Source of the DNA: Bacteroidales bacterium
Lineage (GTDB): Bacteria > Bacteroidota > Bacteroidia > Bacteroidales > JAFGXI01
DNA: 32,880 nucleotides
Assembly (NCBI GenBank): GCA_030627705.1
Contig: DAOVTE010000006.1
Span: forward strand, 1-32,880
Reading direction: 5' to 3'
Numbering within the stretch: the first letter of the stretch is position 1; every line of letters begins with the position of its first letter. The notes under the pieces are model-generated. The model worked only from the letters and a program-made list of their open reading frames with translations, searched no databases and had not been told where the DNA came from. Both the position numbers and the translations under genes were made by a program. Shown one piece after another: positions 21,238 through 32,880 of the stretch.

Positions 21238-21324
21238 ATTTTGTAAATTATTATATTAAATTAATTAATAAACGAAATTAATAATATAAATTGTTTAATA
21301 AACATTATTATAACAAATAAGTGC

Positions 21325-29772: not shown

Positions 29773-30987
29773 ATGGCGAAAAATATTATAGCAAAATCAG
29801 GAAGCTTAGAACCAAAAACAAGATCAGATTGCGAATTGCAATTAGAATTAACTCAAACAGCAGGTATAGAAATCGACTTAAAATCTAAGGTCGATGTAAT
29901 GTTTGGTAAAGCCAACAGAGAACTTATTAAAGATGTTTTTAAGACTTTTGAGATTAAGAATGCAAAACTTACAATAATAGACAAAGGTGCTTTACCATTT
30001 GTTATAGCTGCAAGAATGGAAGCTGCAATCAAAGATTTAATAGACACAGAAAAAGAGTATTTGTTAGATATTATTGATGCAAACAAAAACACATCAGAAA
30101 AAGAGCAATTCCGCTTTTCACGTTTATATTTACCTGGTAACTCACCATCTATGATGCTAAACGCAGGAGTTCATAATCCTAACGGAATAATTCTAGATTT
30201 AGAAGATGCCGTTGCTCCTACAAAAAAACACGAAGCTAGATTTATGGTTCGTAACGCTCTTCGTTCTGTAAATTTTTATGGAGCCGAGCGTATGGTTAGA
30301 ATTAATCAAGGCAAAATGGGAATTAACGACTTAAAATATATTGTTCCTCATAATGTGAACTTAATTCTTATTCCAAAATGCGAATCTGCTGAGGAAATTA
30401 AGAATATTGATATAGAAATTGATAGAATTAAGAAAGAAAGAAATATAGATTATCCAATTTGGTATATGCCAATTATAGAGTCAGCTTTGGGTATAGAACG
30501 AGCTTTTGAAATAGCAACAGCATCCCCAAACGTATCTTCAATGGCAATTGGCTTAGAAGATTTTACTGCAGATTTAGGTGTTCGTAGAACAAATGAAGCT
30601 ACAGAATCAATTTATGCAAGAACCAGAATGGTTAACGCTTGTAAATCAGCAGGTATTCAGCCTATAGATTCTGTTTTTTCAGATGTTTCGGATATGGAAG
30701 CATTGGCTGTAAATGTTAAAACATCAAAGTCATTAGGTTTCGAAGGTATGGGTTGTATTCACCCACGACAGATTCCTGTAATAATGCAAAATTTTGCACC
30801 AGAGCAGGCAGAAATAGAAAAAGCTCAAGAAATTATTCTTGCTTTTGAAAATGCTAAAGCAAAAGGACTTGGTGTTGTTTCTTTAGGAACAAAAATGATT
30901 GATGCACCTGTAGTTAAAAGAGCAGAGACTACTATTAATTTGGCTGTAAAGTTGGGCTTTATTTCTAAAGATTGGATAACCCTTTAG
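29773..30987 (+). CDS. citE: Fused citrate lyase acyl-carrier (CitD) and beta (CitE) subunit
   Basis: Citrate lyase cleaves citrate to acetate and oxaloacetate; CitD carries the phosphoribosyl-dephospho-CoA arm and CitE is the citryl-ACP lyase. In this 404-residue protein residues about 5-100 are CitD-like (SGSLE at 9-13, IDLKSKVDVMFG, IIDKGALPFVIAARMEAAI) and residues about 113-400 are CitE (RLYLPGNSPSMM, LDLEDAV 141-147, GLEDFTADLG 260-269, GFEGMGCIHPRQI). In E. coli CitD the modified serine follows GTLE directly; here GSLE is followed by PKTR and the likely equivalent is S18 (RSDC), so the prosthetic site is shifted by four residues. Fusion of D and E is unusual against the separate genes of enterobacterial loci. 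citF follows after an inserted small gene. citC, citX and citG are not in this window. Confidence 0.93.
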   Translation: MAKNIIAKSGSLEPKTRSDCELQLELTQTAGIEIDLKSKVDVMFGKANRELIKDVFKTFEIKNAKLTIIDKGALPFVIAARMEAAIKDLIDTEKEYLLDIIDANKNTSEKEQFRFSRLYLPGNSPSMMLNAGVHNPNGIILDLEDAVAPTKKHEARFMVRNALRSVNFYGAERMVRINQGKMGINDLKYIVPHNVNLILIPKCESAEEIKNIDIEIDRIKKERNIDYPIWYMPIIESALGIERAFEIATASPNVSSMAIGLEDFTADLGVRRTNEATESIYARTRMVNACKSAGIQPIDSVFSDVSDMEALAVNVKTSKSLGFEGMGCIHPRQIPVIMQNFAPEQAEIEKAQEIILAFENAKAKGLGVVSLGTKMIDAPVVKRAETTINLAVKLGFISKDWITL

Positions 30988-30995
30988 AAAATGTT

Positions 30996-31009
30996 AAATT
31001 ATGAATTAT
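30996..31009. repeat. Left 14-bp inverted repeat of the four-helix-bundle cassette
   Basis: AAATTATGAATTAT is the exact reverse complement of 31365-31378. It lies between the citDE stop (30987) and the four-helix-bundle ATG (31024). A second motif, AATTTTGAATT (31011-31021), is the reverse complement of the first unit of the heptamer tract at 31405. Sequence composition is AT-only apart from one G, so chance matches are a concern. Confidence 0.7.
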
Positions 31010-31023
31010 TAATTTTGAATTAA

Positions 31024-31368
31024 ATGAAGCAGAATATTATTTACAATAAAAGCTTTGATTTTGCTCTTAAGATAATTGGATTATACAAAATTCTATTGTC
31101 CAATAAAGAGTATATTATCTCGAAGCAATTATTACGTTCTGCTACTAGTATTGGGGCAAATGTGACAGAATCAACAGCTGCTCAGTCGAAAAAAGATTTT
31201 ATTTCAAAATTATCAATTTCATCTAAAGAAGCCAGAGAAACAAAATATTGGTTACTATTATTAGATAAAAGTAAATTAGTCAATTTAGATTATACCGAAT
31301 ATATAAATGATATAGAGGAAATAATTAGGATATTAACTTCTATTATTAAAACAAGTCAAGAAAGATAA
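31024..31368 (+). CDS. Four-helix-bundle protein (S23 / 23S rRNA IVS family)
   Basis: A 114-residue helical protein matching the family first seen in 23S rRNA intervening sequences and related in fold to the accessory Avd protein of diversity-generating retroelements. The conserved core is present: SFDFALKIIGLYKIL, then SKQLLRSATSIGANVTEST (39-57), AQSKKDFISKLSISSKEARE and TKYWLLLL. It sits in the same direction between citDE and citF (36 and 76 bp gaps), which are otherwise partners of one enzyme, and is framed by inverted AT-rich repeats, one of which contains its stop codon. It has no known role in citrate lyase, so an inserted cassette is the simplest reading. Basic surfaces in this family suggest nucleic-acid binding. 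Confidence 0.9.
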   Translation: MKQNIIYNKSFDFALKIIGLYKILLSNKEYIISKQLLRSATSIGANVTESTAAQSKKDFISKLSISSKEARETKYWLLLLDKSKLVNLDYTEYINDIEEIIRILTSIIKTSQER

Positions 31369-31378
31369 TTCATAATTT
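31365..31378. repeat. Right 14-bp inverted repeat of the four-helix-bundle cassette
   Basis: ATAATTCATAATTT is the exact reverse complement of 30996-31009. The TAA stop of the four-helix-bundle gene (31366-31368) is inside this repeat. Confidence 0.7.
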
Positions 31379-31404
31379 TGATAATGGGTTTGAGGTTGTA
31401 TTTC

Positions 31405-31436
31405 AATTCAAAATTCAAAATTCAAAATTCAAAATT
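31405..31436. repeat. AATTCAA heptamer tandem repeat (about four units) before citF
   Basis: The C residues at 31409, 31416, 31423 and 31430 show an exact 7-base period over four units (AATTCAA). The tract ends 8 bases before the citF ATG and its unit is the reverse complement of a motif just before the four-helix-bundle gene (31011-31021). Confidence 0.9.
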
Positions 31437-31444
31437 TCATAAAA

Positions 31445-32880
31445 ATGAAACTTGAAAAAAATGCAGTCGGAAGACTAGTGCCAACAGAAATAAATGGAGA
31501 AAAAGCAGTGCCTTTTCAAGGAGTTGGAAAATACAAACCAGAAGGTCGTAGATTCTCTCATGCAATAACATCAAACAAAGATTTTCCTGCAGATGGAAAC
31601 AAGCAAGTGGCCAGCATTAAAGAAGCACTTGTAAAAGCAGGTTTAAAAGACGGAATGACAATCTCGTCGCATCATCATTTTAGAAATGGAGATTTAATAA
31701 TGAACCATATTTTTGATATTGCTAAAGAAATGGGCGTTAAAAACCTACGTTGGTTCCCGTCAGCATCTTTCCCTTGTCACGAGCATTTAATACAATATTT
31801 AGACGATGGAACTATTTCGCACATAGAAGGATCTATGAACGGAGCTTTGGGTCGTTACACATCTCACGGAAAAATGAGTAAAATGGCAGTGCTTCGTTCT
31901 CACGGAGGGCGTTACCAAGCAGTTCAAGATGGAGAAGTGCAAATAGACATTGCTATTATTGGAGCAGGAACAGCCGATTCATTCGGGAACGCAAACGGAC
32001 TTTATGGCGATAGTGCATCAGGCCTTTTAGGTTTTGCTTTAGCAGATTCGGAATACGCCGATAAGGTGATTGTAATTACCGACAATATGGTTCCATTCCC
32101 TTGTATGCCTTGGCAAATTCAAGGAAATAATGTCGATTATACTGTAAAAATTGATAAGGTTGGAGAACCAGAAAAAATTATCTCTGGAACAACTAAAATT
32201 ACAAAAAGCCCAGATCGCTTACTTCTAGCAGAAATGACAGCTAAATTTTGCGATGCTACAGGATTACTAAAAAATGGTTTTTCGTTTCAAACAGGAGCAG
32301 GAGGAACATCATTAGCAGTAAGCGATTATTTCTCTAAAATAATGAAAGAGAAAAATATTAAAGCAAGATTTGCCCGTGGAGGTTCAAATAAATATTTAGT
32401 GCGAATGCTAGAAGAAGGTCAGATAGATTACCTTTTAGATGGACAAACTTTCGATTTAGAAGGTGTGCGTTCTATGGGCGAAAACCCAAATCATACATGG
32501 ACAAGCCCATTTACAAGCTATAATTATCATAGCAAAGGAAATTTTGCGGGTATGGTAGATATTGTAATTCTTGGTGCAACCGAAGTTGATGTTAATTTTA
32601 ACGCAAATGTAGTAACTCATTCCGATGGCTTATTATTACACGGAATTGGAGGATGGCAAAACTGCTTATTCTCGAAAACAGTGATTCTACCAATTCCATT
32701 ATTCAGAGATAGAATTCCTGTGGTGATGGATGAGGTAACAACTATATGTGGTCCTGGCGAACTAATAGACGTAATAGTAACCGAGCGTGGAATTGCAATT
32801 AATCCTTTACGTAAAGATTTAATTAAAGCAGCCAAAGATTCGGGTTTACCAATAAAAACAATTCAAGAACTTAAAGACGA
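31445..32880 (+). CDS. citF: Citrate lyase alpha subunit CitF (partial, cut by window end)
   Basis: The alpha subunit swaps acetyl for citryl on the acyl carrier, forming citryl-ACP. The reading frame is open from ATG 31445 to the window edge (478 codons); the E. coli protein is about 510 residues, so roughly the last 30-40 residues are missing. Recognisable segments are AGLKDGMTISSHHHFRNGDL, the GAGTADSFGNANGLYG loop, QTGAGGTSLAVSDYF, HSDGLLLHGIGGWQN and VTERGIAINPLRKDL; all align in order with E. coli CitF. It belongs with citDE upstream, separated by the four-helix-bundle cassette, and its leader is the AATTCAA heptamer tract. citC, citX or citG could lie beyond the window. Confidence 0.95.
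   Translation, partial: MKLEKNAVGRLVPTEINGEKAVPFQGVGKYKPEGRRFSHAITSNKDFPADGNKQVASIKEALVKAGLKDGMTISSHHHFRNGDLIMNHIFDIAKEMGVKNLRWFPSASFPCHEHLIQYLDDGTISHIEGSMNGALGRYTSHGKMSKMAVLRSHGGRYQAVQDGEVQIDIAIIGAGTADSFGNANGLYGDSASGLLGFALADSEYADKVIVITDNMVPFPCMPWQIQGNNVDYTVKIDKVGEPEKIISGTTKITKSPDRLLLAEMTAKFCDATGLLKNGFSFQTGAGGTSLAVSDYFSKIMKEKNIKARFARGGSNKYLVRMLEEGQIDYLLDGQTFDLEGVRSMGENPNHTWTSPFTSYNYHSKGNFAGMVDIVILGATEVDVNFNANVVTHSDGLLLHGIGGWQNCLFSKTVILPIPLFRDRIPVVMDEVTTICGPGELIDVIVTERGIAINPLRKDLIKAAKDSGLPIKTIQELKD

Follow-up and report, generated by a model that had tools for sequence, protein, structure and literature searches.

The window, by which the whole analysed stretch of 32,880 nucleotides is meant, carries the citrate lyase genes citDE and citF and, between them, an S23/IVP gene enclosed by short tandem repeats. 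The following features were located:

29773–30987, plus strand: citDE, citrate lyase acyl carrier protein fused to the beta subunit (PF06857, PF03328, TIGR01588), the host gene to the left of the insertion
30989–31021, minus strand: left array with a period of 7, inverted relative to the right array; its lag-7 score of 14 was attained in 0.2% of simulations
30996–31009, no strand assigned: left copy of a 14-bp perfect inverted repeat, noted in the preliminary description
31024–31368, plus strand: S23/IVP four-helix-bundle protein of 114 aa (PF05635, 2.3e-26; TIGR02436, 1.3e-30; pLDDT 96.3; matches 2RLD and 2GSC)
31365–31378, no strand assigned: right copy of the 14-bp perfect inverted repeat, overlapping the S23 stop codon
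31405–31436, plus strand: right array, (AATTCAA) × 4.6, perfect (TRF, 100% matches; lag-7 score 25, reached in 0 of 2000 simulations)
31445–32880, plus strand: citF, citrate lyase alpha subunit (PF04223, TIGR01584), the host gene to the right of the insertion, continuing past the window end

A preliminary description of this DNA had placed an S23/IVS-family gene between citDE and citF on the same strand. Gene, orientation and family (PF05635, TIGR02436) were confirmed, and the scores of the ORF at 31024–31368 exceeded the curated cut-offs of both models (PF05635, 92.5 bits against 33.8; TIGR02436, 105.8 against 24). The AlphaFold2 model of the protein was a confident four-helix bundle (pLDDT 96.3) of the 2RLD/2GSC type, with a TM score of 0.87–0.91 against 2RLD; both matched entries, 2RLD and 2GSC, are five-chain crystal structures. 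The S23 ORF was the sole ORF between the arrays, no transposase gene of the kind that marks an insertion sequence being found there, and the segment gave no match in Rfam.

The 14-bp inverted repeat was perfect, with the stop codon inside its right copy, as had been described. It was the longest perfect inverted repeat in 30988–31444 and was matched in 0 of 60 Markov-1 simulations. The flanking inverted repeats are real and are better described as two period-7 arrays, of which the 14-bp repeat forms part. Read on the minus strand, the left array (30989–31021) gives the right-type words AATTCAA, AATTCAT and AATTAAT; it ends 2 nt upstream of the S23 start codon. None of 2000 simulations gave an inverted score between left and right arrays as high as the observed 23, and no other lag-7 arrays scoring at least 13 were present in all 32,880 bases. 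Elsewhere in the window, a 30-bp AT-rich tandem duplication (21245–21303, TRF score 81) is apparently unrelated to the S23 arrays.

The arrangement was compared with that of the intervening sequences (IVSs) of rRNA genes that carry an S23p ORF. In the 23S rRNA IVS of Coxiella burnetii, three GACAGAT heptamers and one GACAGAA heptamer stand directly before the S23 start codon, the number of heptamers varies among strains, and the element has a 28-bp terminal stem and is excised by RNase III (PMC4990558). The window element has the same anatomy, which that paper left ungeneralised: heptamers in tandem before the S23 start codon (30989–31021, period 7), an ORF in the orientation of the host transcript, complementary ends and sporadic presence. 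It differs in that it lies between citDE and citF, in a protein-coding operon, and not in a 23S rRNA gene, so that it falls outside the literal definition of an IVS, and in that arrays on both sides are a family-wide rule, with words specific to each copy. The Coxiella paper is the basis of this comparison, since no retrieved S23 copy could be placed within an rRNA gene. Like those of rRNA IVSs, the arms of the window element are able to pair around the ORF (inverted score 23), yet the element's RNA folded only slightly better than shuffled sequences (z = −1.57, not significant), and the structured-RNA unit proposed in the preliminary description was not supported. RNA structure was also discarded as the main signal, given this z value and the weak pairing of arms in groups of close orthologs.

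The genome of the window (G000) contains four S23 copies, of which two are damaged. The flanks of the three further copies (L001 on G000:C32, L002 on C133 and L004 on C134) show, by eye, 7–9 nt periodic runs of different words. An intact copy between serC-like and serA-like genes has AACCTGT-type words; another, truncated by the contig end and interrupted by frame stops, has 9-nt words of the AACTTTA type; a decayed copy has TTTAAT-type words. The exact words of the window are absent beside these genes because every copy carries its own word. The preliminary description had taken recurrence of the same repeat beside other family members as a test of the reading, which would have misled, since the architecture is common and the word is copy- or subfamily-specific. 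A genome search with the exact words, in which the other near-matches lay mostly within coding sequences with no S23 gene seen nearby, was dropped on the same ground. The citDE–citF insertion itself was found with the same word in one further genome (G002), at 86% identity of the S23 proteins.

From the same order, 80 S23 copies were gathered, and the 78 with full flanks were analysed. Arrays with a period of 6–9 were present in a flank of 76% of these 78 genes, compared with 9% of control genes; about a quarter of the copies were without a detectable array. Lag-7 arrays scoring at least 14 were found in 37% of the upstream and 40% of the downstream S23 flanks (n = 78); the corresponding figures for 376 control genes were 2.1% and 2.4%. 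In the lag spectrum at S23 flanks, 7, 8 and 14 were raised and 9 weakly so; 5, 10, 11 and 13 were not raised. The arms were inverted within each copy (median score 18, against 9 when the right flanks of other copies were used; 78 copies), and the copy's own right flank ranked top of 78 in 47% of cases. Left arrays were G-rich in 48 of 55 cases and right arrays C-rich in 45 of 49. Outside Bacteroidota, strong inverted arms accompanied 86% of 37 S23 copies (from Chloroflexota, Nitrospirota, Planctomycetota, Verrucomicrobiota, Clostridia, Desulfobacterota and others) and 3% of 31 control genes; in about a dozen phyla, relatives show this layout with words of their own. Where an S23 gene lay between co-directional genes, it was in sense orientation 136 times and antisense 7 times, counts that are partly dependent through ortholog groups. 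Other sites included sdhA|sdhB and hisA|hisF, as well as serC|serA in the genome of the window (gene names assigned by sequence reading). The window element is confirmed as a member of a widespread group of S23 elements outside rRNA.

The S23 word goes with the protein subfamily, even at unrelated sites. L024-like S23 proteins mostly carry AGGCA/TGCCT words regardless of host, in a set of named genomes that is biased to the AGGCA subfamily by the use of a single S23 protein as the query of the scan, and the window's S23 subfamily carries AT-rich words across Bacteroidota. Among pairs without a homologous neighbour gene, words were shared by 2–4% below 50% protein identity, by 37% at 60–70% and by 73% at 70–95%. 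Linkage of word and protein would likewise be expected if arrays and gene are inherited as one unit. In the AGGCA subfamily, 88 of 226 successive core pairs were spaced at 7 nt and 51 at 8 nt, the remainder mostly at multiples, compared with 2 core pairs in all in shuffles. The median array of this subfamily comprised 5.3 units (arrays were picked by score, and short ones are under-counted).

S23 units have a history of insertion. Empty sites, as foreseen if the unit is mobile, exist at the citE–citF junction: by hand count from the sequences, 3 of the 54 junctions in which both genes could be read had S23, 9 had arrays without S23, and 42 had neither. Within a single genus (g65), the junction was occupied in G262, empty in G330 and G066, and reduced to array remnants in G390 and G170. 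In L015 (G001), citE is followed by an unrelated ORF, with no citF within the stretch examined. The sdhA–sdhB junction of Flavobacterium, readable in 27 cases, held S23 in five, ORF-less arrays in two and other ORFs in two; the 18 empty junctions had gaps mostly of 6–9 bp. AGGCA was the word in four of the five occupied junctions and AATTAGTG in one (L329), and the two ORF-less arrays carry the L329-type word. Occupied L329 is sister to empty L339 (support 100/99), and for the AGGCA-type S23 the tree needs four changes, gains or losses, two of which are forced by well-supported branches. The presence and absence of the unit may in part be due to loss. AAATA-like runs flank the sdhA–sdhB insertions on both sides, in AT-rich DNA, and are only suggestive of target duplication. 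The inserts of L341 and L345 (gaps of 702 and 597 bp) are non-S23 ORFs, and the spot therefore accepts several kinds of insert.

Arrays without an ORF were also counted in random intergenic DNA, where 15 per 61 kb were found in S23-bearing genomes and 1 per 56 kb in S23-free genomes (p = 0.0006, kinship ignored; control lags gave 2 and 1). All ten of the checked genomes with ORF-less arrays at citE–citF or sdhA–sdhB have S23 elsewhere, and an eleventh, G073, has 15 copies. The citE–citF junction of G073 (L275) holds AAGTATC-, CGTAACT- and AGTCTAA-type arrays next to one another within 200 bp and no S23 gene. The word of an ORF-less junction matched that of a resident S23 gene in one clear case (G795, AATCACT word, L340 and L352); G004 and G054, with four S23 copies each, gave no match. 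In G058, in which no S23 gene was detected, three AATTCGT/AATTATC-type arrays lie close together (L287, 5221–5380); this genome may harbour a lost or undetected element.

Arrays of this kind could be ordinary slippage minisatellites of separate origin, into or near which S23 genes insert. Such an origin would account for the ORF-less arrays at both junctions in other genomes, for the arrays of S23-free G058, and for heptamers reported without S23: TAACTGA-like heptamers in Beggiatoaceae, Cyanobacteria and Bacteroidetes (PMC4679880) and heptamer repeats in Chloroflexus (PMC6749651), the origin of both being unexplained. The heptamers of PMC4679880 resemble the S23 arrays in being intergenic, tandem, near start codons and scattered over the same kinds of lineages; a link to S23 is not drawn there, and none was found in PMC6749651. 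Against a separate origin stand the words, which track the S23 subfamily across unrelated contexts and distant phyla, the inversion of the arms around the gene, the rarity of arrays in S23-free genomes and the lack of an array at most empty junctions; we regard it as unlikely.

It is less probable still, indeed quite improbable, that the gene belongs to the host and was recruited for tuning the citrate lyase operon, through attenuation or RNA processing in the citDE–citF interval, with the repeats as its regulatory site. The insertion and word shared by G000 and G002 at 86% protein identity were therefore kept over time, the array adjoins the start codon, and the sense bias is strong, all as such a role would have it; however, 42 of the 54 citE–citF junctions have neither gene nor array, units of the same type occur in unrelated operons, and damaged copies are present within the same genome. 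An equally improbable origin is that of a retroelement part: a reverse transcriptase acting in trans would be the partner of S23, as of Avd, and the arrays would be built up by copying a short template again and again. Among nucleic-acid proteins, Avd of diversity-generating retroelements (PDB 4DWL, 8UB7) is the closest, though weaker, structural match behind 2RLD and 2GSC, it shares the fold and pentameric assembly common to S23 family structures (the pentamer of the window protein being predicted from homologues), and PF05635 has been noted as Avd-like (PMC10053308), but the window locus has neither a reverse transcriptase nor a variable or template repeat, and the lack of association between reverse transcriptase and S23 across genomes (41/84 against 16/35, p = 0.84) led to its rejection as a helper. 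In the window's own genome, with its four S23 copies, no PF00078 match at E ≤ 1e-8 was found (assembly 92.7% complete).

The segment 30989–31436 is thus read, with fair though not high confidence, as an IVS-type mini mobile element outside rRNA, capped by arrays that the S23 protein probably reads. The small non-autonomous mobile element of the preliminary description is supported by the empty sites, the presence or absence between close species, the ORF-less derivatives and the word-capped ends; its structured-RNA part is not. The pentameric S23 protein would recognise the word of its own element, the target probably being RNA or DNA in single-stranded or hairpin form; a 5-nt core, a 2–3 nt spacer and some five units in each array would fit a ring of five subunits on a single strand. 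Binding to the array beside its own start codon could bring about autoregulation, and binding to both ends of the element could serve mobility; the transcript may pair the left with the right arm around the ORF, as in the RNase III-cut rRNA IVSs. The trp RNA-binding attenuation protein (TRAP) forms a ring that recognises repeats of a short motif separated by 2–3 nt spacers. It provides a working analogy only, the two proteins being unrelated and the binding of S23 to its words putative. To our knowledge, S23 has no recognised catalytic fold. Units of the REPIN/RAYT system (PMC3116915) are likewise short, palindromic, ORF-less and intergenic and rely on a protein whose gene lies elsewhere in the genome; RAYT, however, is a catalytic HUH transposase, whereas S23 is a small helix bundle with no known catalysis, and S23 units are 7–8 nt arrays, whereas REPINs consist of fixed REP sequences.

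More tentatively, and with somewhat more doubt than conviction, S23 may be a large family of word-specific readers, each subfamily a pentameric ring with a 7–8 nt word of its own. Bounded by the arrays, these would constitute a novel class of word-coded mini mobile elements, the source of many unexplained heptamer arrays, and the rRNA IVSs would be the few members that landed in rRNA. In the open-access literature searched, no general description of such S23 elements was found. Protein subfamily and word go together, and specificity is therefore directly testable with a few purified proteins and matching or swapped arrays.

The architecture joins three puzzles: S23/IVP proteins, long known but without a function, bacterial heptamers without a mechanism of spreading, and the presence of S23 genes in operons. 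S23 genes within cas or metabolic operons are annotated as parts of the pathway. In Pleurocapsa, an S23 gene between cmr3 and cmr2 was noted as having a CRISPR-Cas-associated function (PMC3936711), and insertion is the likelier reading. For annotators, an S23 gene in an operon (sdhAB, hisAF, citEF, cmr) is more likely to be an insertion than a component of the pathway.
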